Shown here one piece after another: positions 12,189 to 38,916 of a stretch of 64,000 nt of DNA. Where the stretch lies: NCBI GenBank assembly GCA_016458225.1, contig JAEMGR010000009.1, positions 1 to 64,000 on the forward strand, written 5' to 3'. The position numbers and the translations under genes are program-made. The notes beneath the pieces are model-generated. The model was not told the origin of the DNA. It worked only from the letters and a program-made list of their open reading frames with translations, and made no database searches. This DNA is from Myxococcaceae bacterium JPH2. Lineage in GTDB: Bacteria > Myxococcota > Myxococcia > Myxococcales > Myxococcaceae. Position 1 is the first letter of the stretch, and every line of letters begins with the position of its first letter.

Positions 12189-13904
<1,716 letters not shown>

Positions 13905-14024
13905 GAAATGAAAGTCCTTGGAAACGGTACAACTGCCCCCTGTTTGAGAATGAATCGCAGCGCCTGCGGGGAGCAACCGGTCGCTGCGGGCGTCCCTCCA
14001 ATAGGGACATGATGCATGTTGAGG
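13905..14024 (-). promoter_or_regulatory. Structured 5' leader of rpsA
   Basis: About 120 nt between the predicted transcription start and ATG 13904. Two stem-loops are visible: GTCCCT/AGGGAC (13992-13997 with 14003-14008) and CGCAGCG/CGCTGCG (13956-13962 with 13982-13988). S1 represses its own translation through leader structure in Escherichia coli; a similar role here is inference. Confidence 0.4.
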
Positions 14025-14428: not shown

Positions 14429-15574
14429 CTAGCTGATGAGGCGGAACGTCTCGCGGGCGATCACCAGGCGCTGCACCTCGCTGGTGCCCTCGTAGATGGT
14501 CTGCACGCGCGCGTCGCGGAAGTAGCGCTCCACCGGGAACTCGTCGATGTAGCCGTAGCCGCCGTGGAGCTGGACCGCCTTGTCGCACACGCGGTTGCTC
14601 GTCTCGCTGGCGAACAGCTTGGCCATGGACGCCTCGCGGGTGAAGGGCTGCTTCTGCTCCTTCAGGTACGCGGCGCGCAGGGTCAGCAGCTCCGCCGCGG
14701 ACAGCTGCGTCTTCATGTCCGCCATCATGAAGCGAGGTCCCTGGAACTCCGCCACGGCCTCGCCGAACGCCTTGCGGTCCTTCGTGTACGAGACGGTGGC
14801 CTCCATCGCCGCGCGGGCCACGCCGCACGCCTGCGCCGCGATGCCAATGCGCCCGCCGTCCAGCGCGGTCATCGCCAGCTTGAAGCCGTCGCCCTCCTTG
14901 CCCAGGAGGTTCTCGGCGGGGATCTCGCAGTCCTCGAAGGTGAGCGCCACCGTGTTGGAGGCGCGCAGGCCCATCTTGTCCTCGTGCCGGCCGATGTGCA
15001 GACCCTTCGTGCCGCCCTCGACGATGAAGCAGGACAGGCCCTTGTTGCCCACGCCGGACGTGCGCGCCCACACCACCATCACCCCGGCGTGCGCGCCGGA
15101 GGTGATCCACTGCTTGCTGCCGTTGAGGACGTAGCGGTCGCCGCGCTTGACGGCGCTGGTGAGCAGCGCGCCCGGATCCGAGCCCGCGTGCGGCTCGGAG
15201 AGCGCGAACGAGCCCACCACCGCCTCGCCCGACGTGAGCCGGGTGACGTACGTCTCGCGCTGCGCGTCGGTGCCGAAGGCGTGGATCAGCTCCGCGCACA
15301 TGTTGGTCACCGCCATGGCCACGGACACGGAGGCATCCGCCGCCGCCATCTCCATCATCGCCAGGGCGTAGGCGACCACGCCCGCCTCCGCGCCGCCGTA
15401 CTTCGACGGGAGGTTCACGCCCAGGAGGCCCAGCTCGGCCAGCTCGCGGAAAATCTCCGTGGGGAAGCGCTCCTCGCGGTCCATCGCGCGCGCCTGCGGA
15501 GCCACCCGCTCCCGCGCGAACTTGCGGGCGGTGTCACGAATGAGGGTCTGCGTCTCGGTCAGCTCGAGGTTCAC
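14429..15574 (-). CDS. Acyl-CoA dehydrogenase (short-chain type), copy 2
   Basis: A 381-residue FAD-dependent acyl-CoA dehydrogenase. Seen: the N-terminal helical domain (MNLELTETQTLIRDTARKFA), the FAD/substrate loop FALSEPHAGSDPG, the beta-domain WITSGAHAG, and the catalytic base Glu in YEGTSEVQRLVIARE near the end. It is the last gene of the hbd-crotonase-dehydrogenase cluster, 15 bp after the AgmX-tail protein. Substrate could be butyryl-CoA, isovaleryl-CoA or another short or branched acyl-CoA. It is a clear paralogue of the dehydrogenase at 16039-17181, suggesting divided substrate ranges. Confidence 0.95.
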   Translation of the reverse strand: MNLELTETQTLIRDTARKFARERVAPQARAMDREERFPTEIFRELAELGLLGVNLPSKYGGAEAGVVAYALAMMEMAAADASVSVAMAVTNMCAELIHAFGTDAQRETYVTRLTSGEAVVGSFALSEPHAGSDPGALLTSAVKRGDRYVLNGSKQWITSGAHAGVMVVWARTSGVGNKGLSCFIVEGGTKGLHIGRHEDKMGLRASNTVALTFEDCEIPAENLLGKEGDGFKLAMTALDGGRIGIAAQACGVARAAMEATVSYTKDRKAFGEAVAEFQGPRFMMADMKTQLSAAELLTLRAAYLKEQKQPFTREASMAKLFASETSNRVCDKAVQLHGGYGYIDEFPVERYFRDARVQTIYEGTSEVQRLVIARETFRLIS

Positions 15575-15589
15575 GGCGGGCGTCCTGTC

Positions 15590-16033
15590 CTACTCGATGG
15601 CCTTGAGGTTGAACGGGTACTCGATGGGGTGATCGCGTCCGTCCGTGGGCTTGGGGAAGCTCATGGACATCAGCACCGCCACCACGCAGTCGTTGAGCCC
15701 CGCGTCCTTCAGCGTGCTCGCCTTCTTCACGACCTTGGCGTCCTTCACCAGCCCCTCGGGCGTGATGGTGAAGGACGTCATCAGCTTGCCCTCCACCTTC
15801 TTGCCCTTCTCCACCAGGTGGTCCTCGTAGCACTCCTGGATGCGGACCTTGTGGTGGAGCATGACCTGCTGGATGGAGTCCGGCGTGAAGGGCAGCGCGC
15901 TGACATCCAGCGCCTCCGGCTGCTTGTTGGCCGGAGCCTTCTGGGCCGTCTTGTGCTTCGCGGGCGCACCCTGCCCCAGCGCCAGCGCCGGGCTCAGGAA
16001 CACCGCCATCGCGAGGGCGAGCGAGCGCGTCAT
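15590..16033 (-). CDS. Small secreted protein with AgmX/PglI-type C-terminal domain
   Basis: A 147-residue protein with a signal peptide (MTRSLALAMAVFLSPALALG), a Lys/Ala-rich linker, and a C-terminal domain with the pattern IQECYEDHLVEKGKKVEGKL, FTITPEGLVKDAKVV, LNDCVVAVLMSMSFPKPTDG. This TonB-C-like domain with paired cysteines is found at the end of many myxobacterial AgmX/PglI-related proteins. ATG 16033 is only 5 bp after the stop of the preceding dehydrogenase gene, so it is embedded in a metabolic operon. Role unknown; probably periplasmic. Confidence 0.85.
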   Translation of the reverse strand: MTRSLALAMAVFLSPALALGQGAPAKHKTAQKAPANKQPEALDVSALPFTPDSIQQVMLHHKVRIQECYEDHLVEKGKKVEGKLMTSFTITPEGLVKDAKVVKKASTLKDAGLNDCVVAVLMSMSFPKPTDGRDHPIEYPFNLKAIE

Positions 16034-16038
16034 GGCGA

Positions 16039-17181
<1,143 letters not shown>

Positions 17182-20012: not shown

Positions 20013-21095
20013 TCAGCGGGCCTGGACTACGGGCAGCGGAATGCCCTTCATCGTCTGCGCGGACACGCGCCCCGCGATGTTGCGCGCCACGTCCTGGAAG
20101 GCCTTGGCCTCCGGGCTGTCCTTGGCGGACACCACCACGGGCGTGCCGGAGTCTCCGGACTCGCGCACCTTGAGGTCCAGGGGAATCTCCCCCAGGAACG
20201 GGATGCCGAACATCTCGGCGGCCTTGCGCCCACCGCCGTGGTTGAAGATGGCCGTGGTGTGCGAGCAGTGCGGGCACACGAACTGGCTCATGTTCTCCAC
20301 GATGCCCAGCACGGGGATGTGAACCTTGTCGAACATCTGCTTGGCGCGCACCACGTCCGCCAGCGCCACGTCCTGCGGCGTCGTCACCAGCACCGCGCCG
20401 GCCGCGCGCACCGACTGCGACAGGCTGAGCGCCACGTCGCCCGTGCCCGGCGGCAGGTCCAGCACCAGGTAGTCCAGCTCGCCCCAGTTCACGTCTCGCA
20501 CCAGCTGCATCAGCGCGCCGTGCAGCATGGGGCCGCGCCAGATGAGCGCCTGATCCGCCTCCACCAGGAAGCCGATGGACATGACCTTGAGGCCGTGCGC
20601 GGTGAGCGGCTCCAGCGACTTGCCATCCGGGCTCACGGGACGCTTGTCGGACAGGCCCGTCATGAGCGGCACGGAGGGGCCGTAGAAGTCCGCGTCCAGC
20701 AGGCCCACCTTGGCCCCGTGCTGGGCCAGCGCGGTGGCCAGGTTCACCGCCACGGTGCTCTTGCCCACGCCGCCCTTGCCGGCGCCCACGAGGATGATGT
20801 TCTTCACCTTGGGCAGCATCGCGTTGCCCGAGCCGCCCGCCACCGAGCGCACCTGGGCGCCCCACTCGATGTCGAACTTCTTCAGTCCGGGCACCGCCTT
20901 GAGCGCCGCCTCGGCGTCCGCCTGGATCTTCCCCTTCATGGGACAGGCGGGCGTGGTCAGCTCAATCTTGAGTTTCACCGAGTCACCGGCGACGCGGACA
21001 TCCTTCACCATCCCGGCCTTCACCAGGTCCACGTGCAGCTCGGGATCCATCACCTTCGACATCGCCGTGAGGATGTCGGACTCGGAAACGCTCAT
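20013..21095 (-). CDS. mrp: Mrp/ApbC-family iron-sulfur cluster carrier ATPase
   Basis: A 360-residue P-loop ATPase that binds and transfers Fe-S clusters. Seen: an N-terminal MIP18/DUF59 domain (MSVSESDILTAMSKVMDPEL ... TTPACPMKGKI), the deviant Walker A GAGKGGVGKSTVAVNLA, the aspartate in LLDADFYGPSVP, and the CPxC pair in FVCPHCSH that bridges the cluster. ATG 21095 has AGGTG nearby; the longer frame upstream lacks homology. A TTGACA lies 80 bp upstream (21179-21174), but the matching -10 is weak. Confidence 0.95.
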   Translation of the reverse strand: MSVSESDILTAMSKVMDPELHVDLVKAGMVKDVRVAGDSVKLKIELTTPACPMKGKIQADAEAALKAVPGLKKFDIEWGAQVRSVAGGSGNAMLPKVKNIILVGAGKGGVGKSTVAVNLATALAQHGAKVGLLDADFYGPSVPLMTGLSDKRPVSPDGKSLEPLTAHGLKVMSIGFLVEADQALIWRGPMLHGALMQLVRDVNWGELDYLVLDLPPGTGDVALSLSQSVRAAGAVLVTTPQDVALADVVRAKQMFDKVHIPVLGIVENMSQFVCPHCSHTTAIFNHGGGRKAAEMFGIPFLGEIPLDLKVRESGDSGTPVVVSAKDSPEAKAFQDVARNIAGRVSAQTMKGIPLPVVQAR

Positions 21096-21231
21096 CAGGA
21101 CACCTGAAACCTTTTGGAATACGGGCGTTTGCACGCCTGAACGGGGCGCGGAGATTGCCAGCCCCCCGAGGGCTGTCAACGTCGATTAACGCGCCGGCAC
21201 GACTGCCGCACGGGAGCGGAAGGACGCCTGT

Positions 21232-21880: not shown

Positions 21881-23620
21881 TCACGGGCGCGTGGCTCGCC
21901 AGAGGTGATGGAGCCACGGAGGCAGTGCGCCTTCGGGCTCCTCCTCGTCCCAGGACTCCAGGCCGACCGCAACGGGACACAGGGCATAGGTCCGCGCGTG
22001 CGCCACGCTCGACAGCAGGCGCAGCAGGGACAGGCGCCGCTCGGCGGCCCCGTAGCGCACCAGCTCGAAGTGCTCGGTGCCCTGCCCCGCCAGCTCCAGG
22101 GCGCGCCGGCAGGCCTCCTCGAAGCCACCGATCCGGTCCACCAGCCCCGCGTCCCGGGCCCGCAGGCCCGAGTAGACCCGCCCCTCGGCTCGCGCGTGGA
22201 TCTCCTCCGTCGTCCGGCCTCGCGCCTGGGCGACGGTCTCCAGGAAGGACTGGTAGGACTCCTCCACCTCCGCTTCGAGCGTGGCCCGCTCATGGGGCGT
22301 GAAGCCGCGCGCCGCGGAGGCGAAGCCGGCGTTCTGGCCCCGGGTGATGACGGTACGCCGCACGCCGAACCACTCCAGCAACTCGGAGAACTCGAACTTG
22401 CCGATGAACACGCCGATGGAGCCCACCACGGCGTAGGGCGCGGACCAGAGTTCCCGAGCGCCGAGCGCCGCCATGTACCCGCCGCTGGCGCAGACCGAGT
22501 CCATGTAGGCCACCACGGGCTTGGCGGCCGCCACGCGCCGCACGGCCTCGAGGATCTGCTCCGACGGGAGCGCTCCGCCTCCCGGGCTGCTCACATGCAG
22601 CAGCACGGCCCGCACGCGGGGATCTCTCCCCGCGCGCCGCAGCGACTTCACCACCGCCTCCGCCGCCGCGAAGCGACCCCGCCCCGCGCCTCCGCCGACA
22701 ATCACCCCGGACACCGGCACCAGCCCAAGCCGAGGCGGTCGACGCACCGGGCGCCACCGCACCGGGGGGAACACCCGCGTGTCCAGATAGGCCGCGAAGG
22801 GCTCCAGCGGCGCGGCGTCCTCACCAGGCTCCGTGGGCGGCAGGCCCAGCCGCGCGGGGAGATCCGCCTCGCTCACCAGCGCGTCCACCAGCCCCGCTGC
22901 CAACGCCCGGCGCGCGCTGTAGGGCCCGGCGTCGATGAGCGCCCGTGCCTCCTCGGGCGTGCGCCGCCGGCCCCGCGCCACGGCGTCCACCAGCACCGCG
23001 TAGCGCTCGTCGAGCAGGGCCTCGATGGTCTGTCGCTGGATGTCCGACACCGCGGCGTGGGTGAACAGCTCCGGCGCCGTCTTGTAGTCGCCCCGGCGCA
23101 CGAACTGCGCCTGGACGCCGAAGCGCTTCAGGGCCTCGCCAATCACGGTGGCCTCGGCCGCGTAGCCCACCAGCTCCACGCGGCCCATGGGCGCCAGGAG
23201 CACCTCGTCCGCCGCGCACAGCACCGGATAGGAGTCCGTGTCCACCGCCACCGCCCACGCCACCACGCGCTTGCCCTGGGCCCGAAAGTCCTCCAGCGAA
23301 CGAATGAGCGCCTCCCGCCGGGCCAGCGACACGGACAGCGCCTCCACCTCCACGAGGACGCCTCGCACACGCGGATCCGCCGCCAGCACCTGGAGGGCCT
23401 CTCGGAACGCCGCGAGCGACGTCACCGTGGCGGGCTCGGGTCGGGCGCCGCCCAGCCAGGCCCAGCGACGCCGAGGCTCCCGGTACGCAGGCGCCCCCGT
23501 CAGCCGGAAGCGCACCCAGGCGGGCCGGTGCCTCCGGGCCAGCAGGCGCCAGGGGAGCCCCAGCAGGACGCGCACCAGGAGAAGCAGGTTGGCGAGGGCG
23601 ACGAACGGGAGTCGCAGCAT
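21881..23620 (-). CDS. sppA: Signal peptide peptidase SppA, 67K type (S49 family)
   Basis: A 579-residue membrane serine protease with two tandem S49 domains and an N-terminal membrane anchor (ALANLLLLVRVLLGLPW). Seen: Lys180 in GDYKTAPELF matches the general base of Escherichia coli SppA, and Ser379 in DSVCASGGYMAAL matches its nucleophile. Length equals the double-domain class, in which Lys and Ser come from different halves. It degrades cleaved signal peptides in the inner membrane. The start faces the small membrane protein gene, with 79 bp between them. Confidence 0.93.
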   Translation of the reverse strand: MLRLPFVALANLLLLVRVLLGLPWRLLARRHRPAWVRFRLTGAPAYREPRRRWAWLGGARPEPATVTSLAAFREALQVLAADPRVRGVLVEVEALSVSLARREALIRSLEDFRAQGKRVVAWAVAVDTDSYPVLCAADEVLLAPMGRVELVGYAAEATVIGEALKRFGVQAQFVRRGDYKTAPELFTHAAVSDIQRQTIEALLDERYAVLVDAVARGRRRTPEEARALIDAGPYSARRALAAGLVDALVSEADLPARLGLPPTEPGEDAAPLEPFAAYLDTRVFPPVRWRPVRRPPRLGLVPVSGVIVGGGAGRGRFAAAEAVVKSLRRAGRDPRVRAVLLHVSSPGGGALPSEQILEAVRRVAAAKPVVAYMDSVCASGGYMAALGARELWSAPYAVVGSIGVFIGKFEFSELLEWFGVRRTVITRGQNAGFASAARGFTPHERATLEAEVEESYQSFLETVAQARGRTTEEIHARAEGRVYSGLRARDAGLVDRIGGFEEACRRALELAGQGTEHFELVRYGAAERRLSLLRLLSSVAHARTYALCPVAVGLESWDEEEPEGALPPWLHHLWRATRP

Positions 23621-23699: not shown

Positions 23700-24059
23700 A
23701 TGCGCTCTGTCTCCCTCTCCCGGCTTCTGCTCGTCACCACGCTCGTCTGGGGCGGCGCCGCGTTGGCCCAACCGGCGCGCCGCCACCCCCAGGACTTCCA
23801 AGCTCCCCAGGCCCAGTCCGCCGAGGAGCGAGAGGCCGCCAAGCAACGCGCCATGGGCGGCAACATCAACTCCTACGGTCGCGACATCGTGCCCAAGGAG
23901 CCCACCATCCCGTGGATGGCCGTGGGCCTGGCCATCATCGTCCTCACCGTCGCCACGCCCTTCGCCATCCGCGCCTACCGCGGCACCGCGAAAGAGATCG
24001 ACAGCCACAAGGCGTTCGGTGACCGGCACGAGGACAGCGAAGAGGACGAGGCCGCCTGA
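23700..24059 (+). CDS. Small secreted/membrane protein of unknown function
   Basis: A 119-residue protein with a signal peptide (MRSVSLSRLLLVTTLVWGGAALA), a Gln/Pro/Ala-rich linker, a membrane segment (WMAVGLAIIVLTVATPFAIR) and an acidic tail (EDSEEDEAA). The membrane segment after the signal peptide implies a periplasmic N-terminus and a cytosolic C-terminus. No family recognised. ATG 23682 is an alternative start. It is divergent from sppA and convergent with the RtcA-like gene, 15 bp apart. Confidence 0.7.
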   Translation: MRSVSLSRLLLVTTLVWGGAALAQPARRHPQDFQAPQAQSAEEREAAKQRAMGGNINSYGRDIVPKEPTIPWMAVGLAIIVLTVATPFAIRAYRGTAKEIDSHKAFGDRHEDSEEDEAA

Positions 24060-24074: not shown

Positions 24075-25163
24075 TCACACCGGACTGACTTCCACCATGT
24101 CGTCCGGCCCTGCCGTCACCTTCACCGCCAGGAACCGCTCGATGATGCGCGCATGCGCCTCGAGCGGTTCACGGTCTCCCGCGACCTTGAAGCGCGTGGT
24201 GCCCGGCGTCACCGGCCCCAGCCGACCCGAGGCCAGCAGCGCCGCCGGCAGGAGTATCTGCTGAGCCAGGAGCGCGTCGAGCGCGCCGCCCGCCTCCATG
24301 AAGTCCGCCAGCGCCCCGGCGGCCTCGCGTCCCACGTCCTCGGGTGACCGCCCTCGGTCCCCCAGCGCGAGGAAGCCCGCGAGGGTGAACTCGAACTGCG
24401 CCAGCACGAAGGTCGCCATCCCGGCCGAGCGCGTGACGGACACCGGGCGATTCTCCGCCTCCGCATGGATGCCGCGCTCGCGCAGCAGGGCCACCGCCGC
24501 GCGCGACTGACGCTCCGCGAGCGCGAACGGGAGTCCTCCCACGCACGCCGCCACGCGCACCTCGCGGAGCATGCCCCGCGCGGGCAGCTCCACCCGGAAC
24601 GGGGGCGCCTGGGGCGCGTGCACCTCGGCGGAGAAGTCGCCGCCGCCATCCGGATAGAAGCCGGCGTGCTGCAGCGAGAACTGCACGGGCAACCCATAGG
24701 CCTGGGCCAGCGGCTGCCACGCGCCCACCAGGTACGGATAGCTGGCGCCCGAAGGCAGATGCGTGCTGCCGCGCAGCGTGAGCCGCCCTCCTCCCGCCAG
24801 CGCGAGCGGATAGAACAGACACAGGAACAGCTCCGGCGCGCTGCCCGTTGGCCCCAGCTCCACCACGTAGTCGCTGGGGCGCACGGTGCCGGGTGTGAAC
24901 GACAGCTCCGTGGAGCCCACGACCGCGCCCTCGCTGAGCCCGCTGCCCAGCGCCTCGGCGCCCCGAATCTCCGCCAGATGCTGCGGCCGGAGGCCCGGGG
25001 GCTCGCCACGCGCGAGCAGGTGCGTGAAGCGAAACGGTCGGCCCGTGATGAGCGACAAGGACAGAGCCGTGCGGAGGGACTGCGTCTCTCCCGCGGACTC
25101 GCTCCCGTCGAGCAGCACCGGCTCGGTGCCGGGCCGGTCGGTGCCGGTCATGACCCTCCCCAT
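24075..25163 (-). CDS. RtcA-like (RNA 3'-phosphate cyclase fold) protein, catalytically divergent
   Basis: A 362-residue protein whose length and order of elements match RNA 3'-terminal phosphate cyclase: SLRTALSLSLITGRPFRF, PGLRPQHLAEIRGAEAL, SFTPGTVRPSDYVVELG, AGFYPDGGGDFSAEV and IIERFLAVKV. Key catalytic features differ. The nucleotide loop GEGGGQ of Escherichia coli RtcA is SAGETQ, LADQ is LAQQ, and the nucleophilic histidine position before the final ERFL does not hold His by my alignment. It may therefore be an RNA-binding or Rcl1-like pseudoenzyme. ATG 25163 or 25151 could be the start. It follows the CocE-like gene on the same strand. Confidence 0.8.
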   Translation of the reverse strand: MGRVMTGTDRPGTEPVLLDGSESAGETQSLRTALSLSLITGRPFRFTHLLARGEPPGLRPQHLAEIRGAEALGSGLSEGAVVGSTELSFTPGTVRPSDYVVELGPTGSAPELFLCLFYPLALAGGGRLTLRGSTHLPSGASYPYLVGAWQPLAQAYGLPVQFSLQHAGFYPDGGGDFSAEVHAPQAPPFRVELPARGMLREVRVAACVGGLPFALAERQSRAAVALLRERGIHAEAENRPVSVTRSAGMATFVLAQFEFTLAGFLALGDRGRSPEDVGREAAGALADFMEAGGALDALLAQQILLPAALLASGRLGPVTPGTTRFKVAGDREPLEAHARIIERFLAVKVTAGPDDMVEVSPV

Positions 25164-25230: not shown

Positions 25231-27174
<1,944 letters not shown>

Positions 27175-27250
27175 GCACGCTCCTGGAAGGGATGCGCGAC
27201 ATTGTGAGGGATACGCGTCCCTCCTTCCACCACCGTGTGTCCCCTGCCCG

Positions 27251-30001
27251 CTAGAGCTGCGACGACTCCTTCGCGGCGGCCTTCGCCTGGGCCTCATCGC
27301 CCTGGACGCCCATGACCAGGTGCTCCGCGCAGCGAGCGAACTCGGACTTGAGGTCCGAGGACGTGACGCCTTGGATCAGCGTGGGGCGCTGCGCCACGGA
27401 CTCGGCCGCGAAGTCGCGCACGCGCGCGTCGAGGAGCGCATCCACCCACGCCTCGGTGCTGCTGAAGTCCACCACGGCCTGTGTCATGAGGCGCGTGCGG
27501 GCCCGCTCCAGCTCGGCTGGCGGCACGCCGTCCTTGGCGAAGCTCGCGAACATCCGACGCGCCACGCCCAGCGCCATGCCCAGCTGCGGCGAGTCCACCA
27601 CGCCCTCCACCTGGAGGTGCGCCGCGCCGCCGCGGGCCACCGACACCTGGGTGTCGAAGCCATAGCTGGCGCCGCGCTGCTCACGCACCTGCGTCCACAG
27701 GCGCGCCCGCGCCAGCTCGGCCATGACCGCGTAGCGAGCCTCGGCCTCGGGCGTCGCGGCCGGCAGCCGACAGGCGACGCTCAGCGCGGCCTGGGAGGCT
27801 CCCGTGACCGGCGTGATGTACAGCGTCGGAGGCGTGGCCGCGGGCGGCGCGGGAGGAGCCGGAGGCGCGACGGCGGGCCCCTTGCCACCCCAGCCCCCGA
27901 GGTACTTTCGGGCCAGCGGCTCCACCTGCGCGATGTCGAACTCGCCGGCGATCACCACCACCGCGTTGGCGGGCGTGTAGTTCTCCTTCACCCAGTTCCG
28001 CGCGGACTCCCAATCCACCGCGGACATCGTCTGATAGGTCGCGGGCTGCGCATAGAGGTGCTTCCCATAGAGCGCCTGCATGAGCTGACGGCTCGCGACG
28101 ACGTCGGGGCGCGCATCCACGGCCGCGGTCCAGGGCAGGACCTCGTCGTGAATGAACTTCACGACCGGCTCGGTGATGCGCATGGTGGAGAGCTTCTCCG
28201 CCGTGATGGCCAGCATGTTGCCAACGTTGCCAGCGGGGCCCGCGACCTCGTAGCGGACCTGGTCGCTGCGCAGCGACTTGCGGGTGTGGAGCCCCCAGTC
28301 TCCGGGACTGCCCTCGAAGCTCGTCTCGGCCGAGGCGCCGATGTCCCCGATGGTGGCCACCGCGCTGGGGCCACTCACCTCGCCACCCCGCAGCGCCACG
28401 CCCACGCGAACCAGCGGGAGGCCCGGCCGCGGCACCATCACCACCTCCACCCCATTGTCGAGCCGCACGGTCTTCACCGGAGCGGAGAACGCGGCCAGTG
28501 ACGGCGTCACGGGCCGCGTGCTCGCCACCGTCTCGTCCGGAATCAGGAGCGACGGAGCCTTGAGCGCCCCGACCCCGGTGGCACCCGGGCGCACGAAGAA
28601 CGCGCGGGCGCGCGAGCGCTGCAGCCACTGATACGCGAAGCCCGTCACCTTGCTACCACTGAGGGACAGCAGCGCTCCCTGCGCGCGGCTGAAGGCGCGC
28701 GCGTCCGTCATGAAGTGCGTCAGCTCGGCCCGGCGCACCGCGCGCGCCTGGAGGTCCTCGGAGTCCAGCAGCATTCCGGCGGCCACATGGCGTCGCATCT
28801 CGATGATGCTCTGCTCGCGCTGAGCAACACCTGCGGCATCGTTGGTGTCGGACCAGGAATGGTGCACCTCGTCGAGCACCTTCTCCAGCGAGCGCTTGGG
28901 ATGATCTCCCTTGTTGAGCACCACGCGCACCAGCAACAGCGACGCGCGCGTGCCGCGGATGAGGCCGGTGTCGATGTACGAGATGTCTCCATCGTTCCAG
29001 GCCGCGCGCATCAGGCTGGAGTCCAGCGAGGACGCCACGAACTCCTGCACGGCGCTGGCCTCGTCGAAGCCGCGCGGCAGCACCCACGACACGTACAGCT
29101 CGGGCGACGTCACCGCGGCCTCGTGCGTCACCAGCTCCTTGGACGCGGGCGCGACGGGCGGCTCGACAGTATCTCGCGGAAGGCGCTGCTCCAGCGCCAG
29201 CGGCGGCCCCGAGCCCACCCACGAGGGCGGCAGGGCCTTGTTGAGGAGGGCGTCCACCGTCGTCAGCTCCACGTCACCGGAGATGACGATGGTCACGTTC
29301 TCGGGCCGGTAGTTCAGCCGCGCGAAGCGCTGCGCGTCCGCGAGCGTGGTGGCGGTCAGGCTCTCATGCGTCCCGATGCCGGGGCGCGCGTACGGGTGGC
29401 CCGCGGGGAACGCGTTCTCGAAGGCCCAGCTCGTCACCTTGCCCACGTAGCCCGACTCGTTGCGCTGGCGCAGCTCGTTGCGCACGACCTCGCGCTCCAC
29501 GGTGAACACGTCCGGCGTCACGCCATCGAGCGGCGCGGCCAGCCGCTGCCCTTCGAGCGTGAGCAGGGCCGGGAGGGACTCACGGGGCCCCATGGTCTCG
29601 TAGACGGTGTGATCCATGCCGGTGAAGGCGTTGAACCGTCCCGCGCCGCTCTGCTCCAACCGCGTCCAGACCGAGGCCGTGCCGCCATGCCGCGCGCGGA
29701 ACGCGAGGTGCTCGACGAGGTGCGCCAGTCCCTCCTTGCCCTGGGGATCGCTGGAGCTGCCCACGCCCACCAGCGCCGCGACCGCGACCACGGGCGCACG
29801 CGAGTCCTGCTCGACGACGACGCGCAGGCCCGAGCCCAAGCGGAAGTCGCGGAGCGGGAAGGCCGTATCGCGCATGACGAGTTGGCCACGGGGCGGCACG
29901 GTGGCGCACCCGCCCAGGGCCAGTGCGAGCATGGACAACACGCCCGGTAGGGCAAACAGAGAGCGCCGTCCGAGGGGACGAACGCGAGACATTGGGTTCA
30001 T
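27251..30001 (-). CDS. Two-domain M16 zinc metalloprotease lipoprotein
   Basis: A 916-residue lipoprotein (signal ending LALALGGCATV, Cys32) with two M16 (pitrilysin/insulinase) halves. The first half carries the inverted zinc motif HLVEH (His94, Glu97, His98) and a downstream VEREVVRNE that probably supplies the third ligand. The second half (VRLDNGVEVVMVPRPGLPLV ... EQRGASYGFDTQVSVARG) lacks HxxEH and supplies the substrate-binding half, as usual. Cell location is probably the inner leaflet of the outer membrane. Neighbouring CocE-like hydrolase suggests joint extracytoplasmic protein or peptide degradation. Confidence 0.92.
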   Translation of the reverse strand: MNPMSRVRPLGRRSLFALPGVLSMLALALGGCATVPPRGQLVMRDTAFPLRDFRLGSGLRVVVEQDSRAPVVAVAALVGVGSSSDPQGKEGLAHLVEHLAFRARHGGTASVWTRLEQSGAGRFNAFTGMDHTVYETMGPRESLPALLTLEGQRLAAPLDGVTPDVFTVEREVVRNELRQRNESGYVGKVTSWAFENAFPAGHPYARPGIGTHESLTATTLADAQRFARLNYRPENVTIVISGDVELTTVDALLNKALPPSWVGSGPPLALEQRLPRDTVEPPVAPASKELVTHEAAVTSPELYVSWVLPRGFDEASAVQEFVASSLDSSLMRAAWNDGDISYIDTGLIRGTRASLLLVRVVLNKGDHPKRSLEKVLDEVHHSWSDTNDAAGVAQREQSIIEMRRHVAAGMLLDSEDLQARAVRRAELTHFMTDARAFSRAQGALLSLSGSKVTGFAYQWLQRSRARAFFVRPGATGVGALKAPSLLIPDETVASTRPVTPSLAAFSAPVKTVRLDNGVEVVMVPRPGLPLVRVGVALRGGEVSGPSAVATIGDIGASAETSFEGSPGDWGLHTRKSLRSDQVRYEVAGPAGNVGNMLAITAEKLSTMRITEPVVKFIHDEVLPWTAAVDARPDVVASRQLMQALYGKHLYAQPATYQTMSAVDWESARNWVKENYTPANAVVVIAGEFDIAQVEPLARKYLGGWGGKGPAVAPPAPPAPPAATPPTLYITPVTGASQAALSVACRLPAATPEAEARYAVMAELARARLWTQVREQRGASYGFDTQVSVARGGAAHLQVEGVVDSPQLGMALGVARRMFASFAKDGVPPAELERARTRLMTQAVVDFSSTEAWVDALLDARVRDFAAESVAQRPTLIQGVTSSDLKSEFARCAEHLVMGVQGDEAQAKAAAKESSQL

Positions 30002-33874: not shown

Positions 33875-34939
33875 ATGCGCCGCGCCGTCCTGCTGTTCGT
33901 CGCTTTGATTGGAGTTCTCGCTGCGCTGCTGGGCGCGCGCCTGCTGCGGGAGCGCCGCGCGGCGCAAGGGCCGCCGGGTGGCTCGGGCGTGGTGGAGGGC
34001 ACGGTGGTGGACGTGCGCTCGCGCCTCAACGCGCGCATCGTCGCCTTCCATGTGGAGGAAGGCGCCTCCGTGGAGAAGGGGGCGCTCCTGGCCACGCTCG
34101 ACTGCAATGAGCCCGAGGCAGGGCTCGCCGAGGCAGAGGCGCGGCTCGCGCAGACTCGGGCCCAGGCGGATGCGGCGCGGACATCGGCCGTGGCGGCCGG
34201 CCGCAGCAGCGAGGCCGTCGCCGCGCAGGCGGAAGGGACCGCGGCGCAGCAGGAGTCGCTGGCGGATCAGCTCGGCCTCGCGCAACGCAACGCCGAGCGC
34301 ATCGACAAGCTGGGCGAAGCGGCGGCCGAGTCCACGCGAGATCAGGCCCGCGCCCAGGCGGATGCCCTGAGCCGCCAGCTCATCGCCTCGCGCCACGCGA
34401 GCACCGCGGCGTCGCGACAGGCCCGCGCGGCCACCGAGCAGGAGCGCGCCAGTCAGCAGCAAGCTGAAGCCGCGCTCCAAGCGGTCCAGGCCGCGGAGGC
34501 AGCGCTGCGGCGGGCCCGCGTCGCCGTGAACGAGTGTGAGCTGCGCGCCCCGCTCAGCGCCACGGTGGAGACGCTGCCGCTGGAGCCCGGAGACCTGGCG
34601 ATGCCGGGCACGGTGCTGGCGCGACTGGTGGACACGCGCCACCCGAAGGCGACGTTCTACCTGCCCAACGCGGAGCTGGCCGCCGCGCGCCCGGGGCAGT
34701 CCGCCACGGTCCACGCAGATGCGTACCCGGATCGCTCCTTCTCGGCGCGCGTGGTGACGGTGTCGCGCGAAGCGGCCTTCACGCCGCGCAACGTGCAGAC
34801 GCGCAGCGATCGCGATCGGCTCGTCTACCCGGTGGAGGTTCACATCGACGCGCCGGACGGGGCGCTGCTGCCGGGCATGCCGGTGGACATCCTCCTGGGG
34901 CCCACGCCCGATGCCTCGGTGGCGGAGCAGCGCCCATGA
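33875..34939 (+). CDS. HlyD-family membrane-fusion (adaptor) protein of an ABC-2 exporter
   Basis: A 354-residue periplasmic adaptor. Seen: an N-terminal membrane anchor (AVLLFVALIGVLAALLGARL), the split biotinyl-lipoyl domain (NARIVAFHVEEGASVEKGAL and later CELRAPLSATVETLPLEPGD), a long Ala/Gln/Arg-rich coiled-coil hairpin of about 150 residues between them, and a C-terminal beta-barrel (ATFYLPNAELAAARPGQSAT). It corresponds to YbhG. GGGAGG precedes ATG 33875. The stop overlaps the next gene's start (ATGA). Confidence 0.93.
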   Translation: MRRAVLLFVALIGVLAALLGARLLRERRAAQGPPGGSGVVEGTVVDVRSRLNARIVAFHVEEGASVEKGALLATLDCNEPEAGLAEAEARLAQTRAQADAARTSAVAAGRSSEAVAAQAEGTAAQQESLADQLGLAQRNAERIDKLGEAAAESTRDQARAQADALSRQLIASRHASTAASRQARAATEQERASQQQAEAALQAVQAAEAALRRARVAVNECELRAPLSATVETLPLEPGDLAMPGTVLARLVDTRHPKATFYLPNAELAAARPGQSATVHADAYPDRSFSARVVTVSREAAFTPRNVQTRSDRDRLVYPVEVHIDAPDGALLPGMPVDILLGPTPDASVAEQRP

Positions 34940-35694
34940 GCGCCACCGAGTCGTGGGACCTGGAGCTGCGCGACGTGCGGCGGAGCTTCGGTGCCACCCA
35001 GGCGCTGCGAGGCGTGTCGCTCGCCGTGCGCCAGGGTGAGGTGTACGGACTCGTGGGGCCCGATGGCGCGGGGAAGACGACCGCCATCCGCATCCTCTCC
35101 GGACTCCTGCAGCCCCATGCGGGCTCCGCGACGGTGCTGGGCGTGGACCCCGCCCATCCGCGCGGCGAGGCACGCGAGCGACTGGGCCTCGTGCCACAAC
35201 GCAACACGCTCTACGGGGACCTGAGCGTGGCCGAGAACCTGCGCTTCTTCGCGCACCTGTTTGGCCTCACTCGACCCGATTTCGAATCGCGGCGGGAGCG
35301 GCTGCTGCACATCACCCGCCTGGGGCGCTTCACGGAGCGGCGCGCGGATGCGCTGTCCGGAGGCATGTACAAGAAGCTCGCGCTCGCGTGCGCCCTGCTC
35401 CACCGGCCTCGCGTGTTGCTGCTCGATGAGCCCACGAACGGAGTGGATCCAGTGAGCCGCCGTGAGCTGTGGGAGCTGCTCTACGGACTGGTGCACGAGG
35501 GGATGACCCTGGTGGTGTCCACGCCGTACATGGACGAGGCCGCGAGGTGTCACCGCGTGGGCCTGCTGTACGAGGGACAGCTCATCGCGGAGGGAGATCC
35601 CCGCGCCCTCGCGCGCGAGCATGGCGTGTCTCCATCCAGCTTCGAGTCGGTGTTCCTGGCGCTCATCGCCCGCCGCGACGGGAGGGCCGCGTGA
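34936..35694 (+). CDS. ABC transporter ATPase 1 (degenerate switch His), ABC-2 exporter
   Basis: A 252-residue nucleotide-binding protein. Seen: Walker A GPDGAGKTTAIR, Q-loop region LVPQRNTLYGD, signature LSGGMYKKLALA, Walker B VLLLDEPTNGVDP, but the H-loop reads STPYMDEAARC, with Pro where the switch histidine normally stands. The N-terminal half of Escherichia coli YbhF shows the same loss (from memory), so this protein corresponds to that half as a separate gene. It starts with a 4-bp overlap with the adaptor gene and ends with a GTGA overlap with ATPase 2. Confidence 0.93.
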   Translation: MSATESWDLELRDVRRSFGATQALRGVSLAVRQGEVYGLVGPDGAGKTTAIRILSGLLQPHAGSATVLGVDPAHPRGEARERLGLVPQRNTLYGDLSVAENLRFFAHLFGLTRPDFESRRERLLHITRLGRFTERRADALSGGMYKKLALACALLHRPRVLLLDEPTNGVDPVSRRELWELLYGLVHEGMTLVVSTPYMDEAARCHRVGLLYEGQLIAEGDPRALAREHGVSPSSFESVFLALIARRDGRAA

Positions 35695-36626
35695 ACGTCA
35701 TCGAGGTGGAGCACCTGTCGCGACGCTTCGGCGACTTCAAGGCCGTGGATGACGTGAGCTTCACCGTGGGGGCCGGAGAAATCTTTGGCTACCTGGGCGC
35801 CAACGGCGCGGGCAAGTCCACCACCATCCGCATGTTGTGCGGCCTGCTCCAACCCTCGGGGGGACATGCGCGCGTGGCGGGCCACGACGTGGCGAGCGAC
35901 CCCGAGCGCGTGAAGGCGGGCATCGGCTACATGTCCCAGCGCTTCTCGCTCTACCTGGACCTCACGGTGCGCGCGAACCTGGAGTTCTTCGCCGCCGCGT
36001 ATGGTGGGCACGGCGCCGCGCTGCGCACCGCCATCGACGCGATGCTGGAGCGCATGCAACTGACCGCCGTGCGCAATGAGGTGACGGGCTCGCTGCCGGG
36101 CGGTCTCCAGCAGCGCGTGGCCCTGGCGAGCGCGGTGATGCACCGGCCGCGCATCGTCTTCCTGGATGAGCCCACGGCGGGCGTGGATCCGCTCCAGCGT
36201 CGCTCCTTCTGGCAGCTCATCCGCGATCTGGCCGCGCAAGGCACCACGGTCTTCGTCACGACGCACTACATGGACGAAGCGGAGAACTGCGCGCGCATCG
36301 GCATCATGGTGGACGGGCGACTGGTCGCGCTCGACACGCCCGAGGCGCTCAAGCGCGACCACGCCCCAGGCCGAGTGCTGGAGGTCCGCGGCCCCGGGCT
36401 GGCCCAGGCGCTCGAGGGACTGCGCGGCGAGCCCGGCGTGCTGGACGTGAGCCGCTTCGGCTCAGGGGCCACGGTGCGCGTGGATCCAACGCGAATGGAG
36501 GCGCACGGCTTGGAGCAGTGGTTGCGCGCCCGGGGCGTGGATCCGCTGGAGCTGGAGGAGTCCGCGCCCACGCTGGATGACGTGTTCCTGGCCCTGACGG
36601 CCTCCGCGCAGCGAGGAGAGGACTAG
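35691..36626 (+). CDS. ABC transporter ATPase 2 (canonical), ABC-2 exporter
   Basis: A 311-residue nucleotide-binding protein with intact motifs: Walker A GANGAGKSTTIR, signature LPGGLQQRVALA, Walker B IVFLDEPTAGVDP and the switch His in TTHYMDEAENC. A C-terminal regulatory segment of about 85 residues follows, as in DrrA-type ATPases. It matches the C-terminal half of YbhF, so with ATPase 1 it likely forms a heterodimer in which only one site hydrolyses normally. The start is GTG 35691, preceded by GGGAGGG. Confidence 0.94.
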   Translation: MNVIEVEHLSRRFGDFKAVDDVSFTVGAGEIFGYLGANGAGKSTTIRMLCGLLQPSGGHARVAGHDVASDPERVKAGIGYMSQRFSLYLDLTVRANLEFFAAAYGGHGAALRTAIDAMLERMQLTAVRNEVTGSLPGGLQQRVALASAVMHRPRIVFLDEPTAGVDPLQRRSFWQLIRDLAAQGTTVFVTTHYMDEAENCARIGIMVDGRLVALDTPEALKRDHAPGRVLEVRGPGLAQALEGLRGEPGVLDVSRFGSGATVRVDPTRMEAHGLEQWLRARGVDPLELEESAPTLDDVFLALTASAQRGED

Positions 36627-36630
36627 CGCC

Positions 36631-37767
36631 ATGGGTGCTTCGACTGTCCGTCGCTCGATGGGTCGCATCCTCGCCATCGCGGGCAAGGAGGTGCTGCACA
36701 TCCGCCGCGACCCCCGCACGCTCTACCTCGCGCTGGCCATGCCCGTGGTGATGCTGGTGCTGTTCGGGTACGGCATCAGCTTCGACGTGGACCACCTGGA
36801 CCTGGCGGTGGTGGACCAGGACCGGACGTGGGCCTCGCGCGAGCTGGTGCGCCAGTTCACCGCCTCCGAGGAGTTCGTGGTCGGCACCGAGAGCCCGTCA
36901 ACGGAGCAGGCGCTGCGTGACGCTCGGCGAGGCCGCGCTGTCGCGGTGCTGGTTCTGCCCAAGGGCTTCGCGCGGGACGTGTCCTCAGGAGGCGCCCAGG
37001 TGCAGCTCCTGGTGGACGGCGCGGACGGCAACACCGCCACGCAGGTGCTCGCCAAGGCACAGGCGCTCGTCCAGGTCGCGAGCACCCGACTGGCTGGCGC
37101 GGGCGCGCCCATCCCCGCCCCTCCGGTGGAGGTGCGGATCCGCACGCTGTTCAATCCGGCGGGACGCTCGGCGCTGTTCGTCGTGCCGGGGCTGGCGGCG
37201 TATCTCCTGGCCATCGTCGCGGTGCTCATGACGGCGCTCACGGTGGCGCGGGAGTGGGAGCGCGGCTCGATGGAGCAGCTCTTCGCCACGCCCGTGGGAC
37301 GGATGGAGATCGTCGTGGGCAAGCTGCTGCCGTACCTGTGCATCGGGCTCGCGCAGGTGCTGCTGGTGCTCACCGCGGGCGCGTGGGTGTTCAGCGTTCC
37401 CATTCGAGGCAGCCTGCCCGTGCTCGGCTTGGGGGCGCTGTTGTTCCTCATCGGAATGCTGGGCCAGGGGTTGCTCATCTCGGTGGTGACGCGCAATCAG
37501 GTGGTGGCGACCCAGGTGGCGACGCTGACGTCCATGCTGCCCTCGATGCTCCTGTCGGGCTTCATCTTCCCCATCTCCAACCTGCCCGCACCGCTGCGGG
37601 CACTGAGCACGCTCATCCCCGCGCGCTACTTCGTCAGCGTGCTGCGCGGCGTGCTGCTGCGCGGCAACGGGCTGGAGGTGTTGTGGCCCCAGCTCGGGGC
37701 GCTCGCCCTCTTCGCGCTGCTCATCCTCACCGTGGCCATGGCGCGCTTCCAGCGCCGGCTCGACTGA
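36631..37767 (+). CDS. ABC-2 type permease 1
   Basis: A 378-residue inner-membrane permease of the YhhJ/YbhS type. Seen: one N-terminal membrane segment (LYLALAMPVVMLVLFGYGIS), a large periplasmic domain (LDLAVVDQDRTWASRELVRQ to FNPAGRSALFVVPG), then five clustered C-terminal segments with REWERGSMEQLFATPVGR between the first two. It probably pairs with permease 2. ATG 36631 lies 4 bp after the ATPase stop. Confidence 0.93.
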   Translation: MGASTVRRSMGRILAIAGKEVLHIRRDPRTLYLALAMPVVMLVLFGYGISFDVDHLDLAVVDQDRTWASRELVRQFTASEEFVVGTESPSTEQALRDARRGRAVAVLVLPKGFARDVSSGGAQVQLLVDGADGNTATQVLAKAQALVQVASTRLAGAGAPIPAPPVEVRIRTLFNPAGRSALFVVPGLAAYLLAIVAVLMTALTVAREWERGSMEQLFATPVGRMEIVVGKLLPYLCIGLAQVLLVLTAGAWVFSVPIRGSLPVLGLGALLFLIGMLGQGLLISVVTRNQVVATQVATLTSMLPSMLLSGFIFPISNLPAPLRALSTLIPARYFVSVLRGVLLRGNGLEVLWPQLGALALFALLILTVAMARFQRRLD

Positions 37768-37779
37768 AAGGCCGGACAC

Positions 37780-38916
37780 ATGCATCCGCTCCTCGTGCAG
37801 TACCGCGCGGTGGTGGTGAAGGAGGTCCGGCAGACGGTGCGCGACCGGCGCGTCATGGCGCTGCTGACCATCGCACCGCTGATGCAGCTCTTCGTGCTGG
37901 GGTTCGCCGTCAACTTCGACGTGCGGCGCGTTCCCACCGCCGTGGTCGATCGCAGTCAGACCGTGGAGAGCCGCGAGCACGCCCGCACCCTGCTGGCGGG
38001 AGACACCCTGCAACTGACAGCGGAGCCACACGATGAGCGGGCCGCCGCGACACTCCTGGAGGATGGCGCGGCCTCGGTGGCGCTCGTCTTCCCGCCGTCC
38101 TTCGAGAAGGACCTGCTGCGCGGCGATGGCGCCTGGGTGCAAGCCCTGGTGGATGGCTCGGATCCGGTGCGTTCGAGCGTGGCCGTGGACGCGGTGGCTC
38201 GGCACGCCGCCGCGCGGGCCGCGACCCTGGGCCAGGAGCGGGCACGGCGCTTCGGCAGCGAACCTCCCCATCCCACGGTCACGCTGGAGTCGCGCGTCCT
38301 CTACAACCCGGCCCTGGAGACCGCGGTGTACGTGGTGCCCGGCATCGCCGCGATGCTGCTGCTCATCGTCACCACCATCATCATGTCCATGGGACTGGCG
38401 CGTGAGCGCGAGACGGGCACGCTGGAGCAGCTCCAGGTGACGCCCCTGCGCTCCAGCGTGTTGATGCTGGGCAAGGTGACGCCGTTCCTGCTCGTGGGGC
38501 TCGTGGATGTGGGGCTGGCGCTGTGCGTGGGCACGTGGGTGTTCGGCGTGCCGCTGCGCGGAAGCCTGTTGCTGGTGGCGCTGGCCACCCTGCTCTACCT
38601 GATGTCCACCTTGGGTGTGGGGCTGCTCATCGCGACGGCCAGCCGCACGCAGCAGCAGGCCTTCGTCGGCGGCTTCCTCTTCATGCTCCCGGCGGTGCTG
38701 TTGTCCGGCGTGATGACGTCGCTGCGCGCGATGCCGGACTGGCTCGTGTGGATCACCTGGCTCAATCCGGTGCGCCACTACGCCGAAGTGTTGCGCGGTG
38801 TGCTCCTCAAGGGAGCGGGCCTCTCCGACCTGTGGCCACAGTTCCTCCTGCTCTCAGGTTTTGGAGTGCTGATGCTGGGCATTGCGACCCGTCGATTCCA
38901 CAAGACCGCCGCGTAG
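37780..38916 (+). CDS. ABC-2 type permease 2
   Basis: A 378-residue paralogue of the preceding permease with the same topology: RDRRVMALLTIAPLMQLFVL, a periplasmic domain (YNPALETAVYVVPG) and the cytosolic loop ARERETGTLEQLQVTPLR. Identical length to permease 1 suggests tandem duplication and a heterodimeric channel, as in YbhS/YbhR. It ends the five-gene exporter operon; the next gene is 154 bp away without a clear terminator. Substrates of the family include drugs and lipids; none is indicated here. Confidence 0.93.
   Translation: MHPLLVQYRAVVVKEVRQTVRDRRVMALLTIAPLMQLFVLGFAVNFDVRRVPTAVVDRSQTVESREHARTLLAGDTLQLTAEPHDERAAATLLEDGAASVALVFPPSFEKDLLRGDGAWVQALVDGSDPVRSSVAVDAVARHAAARAATLGQERARRFGSEPPHPTVTLESRVLYNPALETAVYVVPGIAAMLLLIVTTIIMSMGLARERETGTLEQLQVTPLRSSVLMLGKVTPFLLVGLVDVGLALCVGTWVFGVPLRGSLLLVALATLLYLMSTLGVGLLIATASRTQQQAFVGGFLFMLPAVLLSGVMTSLRAMPDWLVWITWLNPVRHYAEVLRGVLLKGAGLSDLWPQFLLLSGFGVLMLGIATRRFHKTAA

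Follow-up and report, generated by a model that had tools for sequence, protein, structure and literature searches.

The question raised by this locus is whether a bacterial protein of the RNA 3'-phosphate cyclase (RTC) family, in which the catalytic nucleophile appears to be missing, is encoded by a decaying gene or by one that is retained. The window, a stretch of 64,000 nucleotides from the genome of Myxococcaceae bacterium JPH2 (family Myxococcaceae, taken here as Citreicoccus; the assembly comprises 144 contigs, totals 9.0 Mb and is 99.6% complete), carries on its reverse strand an open reading frame of 362 residues at 24075-25163, and the residue numbers given here follow that frame. The true start is probably the second ATG, at 25151, which would give a protein of 358 residues, because GGGGAGGG lies shortly upstream of it and it aligns with the MTG starts of orthologues. 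The codon-position G+C values of 0.76, 0.54 and 0.90 are like those of a genuine GC-rich gene. The gene, termed rtcA2, and the codons of its altered active site, located by alignment, are as follows.

24075-25151, reverse strand: rtcA2, predicted pseudoenzyme gene, probable extent (358 aa; the listed frame begins at 25163; Pfam RTC and RTC_insert)
25083-25097, reverse strand: SAGET codons replacing GEGGG; Glu14 corresponds to Ala24
25005-25016, reverse strand: codons of residues 50-53 (L-A-R-G); Arg40 corresponds to Leu50 and Arg43 to Gly53
24261-24263, reverse strand: codon of Gln301, which replaces Asp287 (LADQ reads LAQQ)
24165-24167, reverse strand: codon of Pro333, aligned with the nucleophile His309 that becomes adenylated in RtcA

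The placement of the protein in the cyclase family, made in a sequence-only reading of this DNA, holds. Both Pfam gathering cut-offs are exceeded, for RTC (PF01137) with 139 bits against 27 and for RTC_insert (PF05189) with 59.3 against 23, and by these matches the protein is a full-length member of the family; its closest solved structures are the E. coli RtcA chains in the PDB (about 1e-35). Identity amounts to 33% with E. coli RtcA and 36% with the canonical RtcA of the same genome. The scores against the two NCBIfam models of the RtcA equivalog fall below their cut-offs (TIGR03399, 202.5 against 250.05; NF003246, 216.7 against 352). As controls, the canonical RtcA of the window genome exceeds both, and an intact RtcA2 (L006) is above the first (306.3) and below the second (320.9). 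A structure prediction from two sequences did not succeed (mean pLDDT 40.3). A plasmid search with the window protein as query returned 17 records, all below 60% identity, and 12 of the 15 matches listed span 74-93% of the query.

Catalytic residues are cited in the numbering of the literature, which is the index of E. coli K-12 b4475 plus one. At positions 14, 18, 21, 40 and 43 the window protein has A, Q, R, L and G where E. coli RtcA has E, Q, R, R and R, and at positions 51, 52, 287, 288 and 309 it has Q, H, Q, Q and P where E. coli RtcA has Q, H, D, Q and H. The changes are E14A, R40L, R43G, D287Q and H309P; Q18, R21, Q51, H52 and Q288 are retained, Gln51 and His52 being Gln61 and His62 of the window protein. 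The alignment confirms what had been read from the letters, namely SAGETQ for GEGGGQ, LAQQ for LADQ and the absence of the nucleophilic histidine. The replacement of His309 by proline is secure because the alignment of the window protein, TEHLTTHARIVERFL, with an intact orthologue of 63% identity, REPLEAHARIIERFL, is free of gaps around His309/Pro333. The sole histidine nearby, His337, lies four residues on and is not a shifted nucleophile, since the orthologue that bears His309 has its counterpart too. A sequencing error is rejected as well, as the protein of Citreicoccus inhibens M34 (L175, 90% identical) carries the identical Ala, Leu, Gln and Pro and the two assemblies agree.

A published account states that His309 carries the AMP in RtcA, and that Glu14, Arg43, Gln51, His52 and His320 (human numbering) are among seven conserved residues essential for cyclisation (PMC9048941). 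The window protein is without three of these five (Glu14, Arg43 and the nucleophile) and has Gln51 and His52. With His309, Glu14, Arg40, Arg43 and Asp287 gone, the Citreicoccus RtcA2 would be unable to accept AMP or to pass it on, so that RNA 3'-phosphate cyclisation by this protein should be impossible. Binding of a nucleotide or phosphate may still occur through the remaining Q18, R21, Q51 and H52.

A loss of cyclase from the whole genome is ruled out. The second intact rtcA that the sequence-only reading had proposed to look for is present on contig 7, in a canonical rtcR-rtcB-rtcA locus, with every active-site residue. Canonical RtcA, counted once per genome, has nucleophile and active site intact in 37 of 37 Myxococcota genomes, and one scan for viral relatives of it found none. 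The window protein shares with E. coli RtcA and with this canonical copy (L001) the RTC and insert domains and the five retained residues, and is distinguished from them by the five changed ones, by its position outside the rtcBA operon and by its scores under the equivalog cut-offs. RtcB gave seven matches in the window genome, on contigs C3, C5 and C7 (L034-L040); by position these are five genes, two of which were matched in two pieces each.

RTC proteins were extracted from searches of 40 related genomes and 195 of the phylum. The 134 proteins comprise 115 RtcA2, 17 canonical RtcA (18 rows with that of E. coli) and two fragments (L027 and L159), which were left out of the 115; a partial protein from G106 and an RtcA2 fragment from G145 are also uncounted. 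The division into canonical RtcA and RtcA2 was assigned by genus; the tree bears it out for the rows included, and for the others it rests on genus and sequence. The tree, built from 98 of 135 rows after removal of the catalytic columns, reveals that RtcA2 is monophyletic and apart from canonical RtcA (80 rows, support 100/100, stem 1.15). All RtcA2 rows come from the order of the window, Myxococcales, and the six tree rows that represent other orders lie outside the clade. RtcA2 is a second RtcA of long standing in that order.

When nine active-site residues are scored, 73 of the 115 RtcA2 proteins are intact, 11 are changed with His309 kept, and 31 are without His309. The last are found in the genus of the window, g1 (2 of 2, with Pro), in g38 (15 of 15, with Asp, Glu or Ala), in g13 (one), in family f7 (10 of 10), and in G030, G025 and G026. 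Intact members of the clade such as L005 and L006 are 63-68% identical to the window protein and share the neighbour sppA with it, and differ from it in retaining all nine residues. Could the altered site have been remodelled for a different chemistry, that of a hydrolase or another transferase, on Q18, R21, Q51 and H52, which the window protein still has? The kept residues vary from group to group, f7 retaining none of ten catalytic positions throughout and g38 three, so that no common new site is seen; we give this explanation very little credence.

Parsimony on the tree made without catalytic columns requires at least five changes at His309 and seven at Asp287. The union of g1 and g38 in one clade is, however, not rejected by the AU test (p = 0.479), and long branches converge in the part of the tree that contains f7, G026, G030 and G025. 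For these reasons the safe minimum is lower, and the data point to at least three losses of His309 within RtcA2, most simply five. The first of the three is that of g1 with g38, within a starred clade of 18 rows that also contains the intact g23; the second is that of g13, within a starred clade of four rows together with the histidine-bearing g7 and g21; the third lies in the non-f1 group. In the RtcA2 of G021, G007 and G151 (L014, L015 and L120) a deletion of three residues removes Glu14 while His309 and Asp287 are kept, and this loop deletion, seen in g7 and g21, looks like a possible intermediate of the loss.

The surroundings of rtcA2 were compared in 20 loci, the window and 19 others, some on contigs too short to judge. 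The neighbours of the gene in the window are as follows.

20013-21179, reverse strand: mrp/ApbC-type P-loop ATPase, a neighbour conserved at 11 of the 20 loci
21881-23620, reverse strand: sppA, conserved downstream neighbour of rtcA2 (Pfam/NCBIfam and synteny, 12 of 20 loci)
23748-24056, forward strand: matched part (tblastn) of a small convergent open reading frame between rtcA2 and sppA, common to several orthologous loci
25231-27297, reverse strand: CocE/NonD hydrolase, upstream neighbour, present in G001 and G023 as well

Among the 20 loci sppA lies downstream in 12, and mrp and a divergent CitMHS-type transporter occur in 11 each; 17 loci have one or more of the three, and the window locus has sppA and mrp. 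Even the highly divergent f7 gene (L060) is adjoined by both the CitMHS-type transporter and mrp. Since these neighbours are common to rtcA2 loci and absent at the canonical locus (L041, with none of sppA, mrp and CitMHS), vertical descent from intact genes is the simplest account of the dead rtcA2 genes. Elsewhere in the window, two ABC ATPase frames are followed by two ABC-2 permease frames of 378 aa each (34936-38916, forward strand), two similar acyl-CoA dehydrogenase genes stand in tandem (14429-17181), and one protein resembling ribosomal protein S1 has six matches to the S1 RNA-binding domain (12189-13976).

Recurrent loss of an active site could mark the early decay of a gene made redundant by canonical RtcA and on its way to being lost. 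Canonical RtcA is indeed present in the genomes of g1, g38, g13 and g25, and the active-site residues have gone first. In the groups without His309, 20 of 70 catalytic core columns are kept against 300 of 560 others (Fisher 5.6e-5, a guide only, because the seven groups are partly non-independent and were selected for the absence of His309, one of the ten positions), and in histidine-bearing RtcA2, sampled once per genus (22 proteins), the figures are 215 of 220 catalytic columns against 1243 of 1760 others, the core columns of these pooled figures being defined from canonical rows alone. The alignment thus indicates that losses in the groups without His309 are concentrated at the active site. 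Taken group by group, with columns partly defined by intact RtcA2, the contrast falls below 0.05 in g38, f8 and g25; in g1, g13, f7 and g26 it does not.

The rates of substitution, estimated as dN/dS by the method of Nei and Gojobori, bear on the same question. For rtcA2 of the window and G001, the g1 pair, dN/dS is 0.305 (CI 0.20-0.46), which exceeds both the 0.166 of the canonical rtcA pair (CI 0.08-0.31; the intervals overlap) and the median of 0.118 for intact g23 rtcA2 (10 genomes, 45 pairs; canonical 0.225), as early decay would have it. The neighbours of the same pair gave 0.120 (sppA), 0.112 (mrp) and 0.138 (cocE), and a 3HCDH gene 0.91 (0.45-1.98) on few changes and with a start that is probably wrong. 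In g38 the rtcA2 genes without His309 have a median of 0.198 (11 genomes, 55 pairs; canonical 0.228); the g38 and g23 medians are for genomes whose canonical copy was fetched. Three f7 pairs gave 0.111, 0.136 and 0.174. Relaxation in g1 is real because its rtcA2 evolves faster than the canonical paralogue and has a long stem (0.37). Selection on rtcA2 of g1 and g38 is weaker than on intact g23 RtcA2, yet clearly purifying, and if the loss was inherited once per group, the divergence within g1, g38 and f7 is later than the loss.

Against decay, then, dN/dS is far under 1 in all three groups without His309 that were tested, the frames of all 31 matches are open with no stop codon reported within them, and f7 retains the gene as its sole detected RTC gene at a dN/dS of 0.11-0.17. 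In all, twelve genomes contain a single RTC match, which is without His309; ten of them belong to f7 and the other two are G026 and G030 (some of the assemblies are only 61-90% complete), and so the retained function seems not to need a cyclase. The purifying selection (dN/dS 0.11-0.31) and these twelve genomes with no other detected RTC gene indicate that the window rtcA2 is the gene of a retained pseudoenzyme and not a decaying one, and we consider early decay distinctly unlikely. The earlier view of the protein as a pseudoenzyme is thereby upheld, the nucleophile and neighbouring active-site residues being lost while the gene is kept under purifying selection. In the open-licence literature searched, which lacks most subscription papers, we found no description of a bacterial RTC pseudoenzyme.

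What the retained protein does is best explained, in our judgement and with moderate confidence, by a binding or scaffold role that is non-catalytic and makes the chemistry of RtcA2 dispensable. This second role would act through the kept RTC fold, the insert domain and residues specific to RtcA2, and the cyclase chemistry would have been lost where it sufficed; candidates for the bound partner are RNA ends, ribonucleoproteins and other proteins. Among the residues specific to RtcA2, W140 (97%), D282 (97%), A111 (100%), P109 and G114 are kept in 94-100% of the rows without His309, which is consistent with a common interface or a constraint of the fold; Y135, V139 and G249 are kept in just 10-26%.

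One candidate partner is the Rtc system itself. According to PMC9650030, E. coli RtcAB need no catalytic activity in order to bind RtcR at its CARF domain, and Citreicoccus has both RtcR and RtcB, so a pseudoenzyme that binds this domain or RtcB and tunes rtcBA can be envisaged. Of 40 genomes tested, however, only 12 yielded RtcR, and 34 yielded RtcB. RtcR went undetected in the genomes of g13, g25, g26 and f7 whose RtcA2 is without His309 (6 of 6 f7 genomes tested), RtcB went undetected in G026, G062 and G064, and rtcA2 is unlinked to rtcBA. A role through RtcR could apply in Citreicoccus, not generally, and as the explanation of RtcA2 we regard such regulation as improbable.

The non-catalytic role that we favour also invites comparison with eukaryotic Rcl1, the parallel drawn when the gene was first read. 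The lost chemistry supports it: both are non-catalytic proteins of the RTC fold without Glu14, Arg43 and the nucleophile, and the window protein is without three of the five residues (Glu14, Arg43, Gln51, His52 and His320) that maize RCL1 lacks according to PMC9048941. Kinship does not follow, since the score of 45 bits against the Rcl1 model TIGR03400 (cut-off 227.95) rules out membership and the loss is recurrent inside a mostly intact bacterial clade of RtcA paralogues, in which the window protein arose. A factor that, like Rcl1, serves the biogenesis of ribosomes or RNA by binding RNA or a ribonucleoprotein without chemistry would agree with the independence of the f7 gene from canonical RtcA. 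However, Gln51 and His52 are kept, no ribosome-biogenesis gene adjoins rtcA2 in Pfam scans, and the protein is acidic (pI 5.72, where the larger RtcA2 groups have medians of 6.1-6.9 and canonical RtcA one of 8.56), a charge that does not favour RNA binding; such a factor is unlikely.

A broader form of the favoured non-catalytic role, in which the main selected role of RtcA2 across Myxococcales is an ancestral non-catalytic function and the protein a bacterial counterpart of Rcl1, is put forward only tentatively, as possible but somewhat doubtful; it would account for the disappearance of the cyclase site on three or more occasions, one of which left f7 without any further detected RTC protein. 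Closely related genera with intact and dead RtcA2 offer a route to what proteins of the RtcA fold do without chemistry, the question that Rcl1 leaves open, in bacteria some of whose relatives are cultured and mutable.
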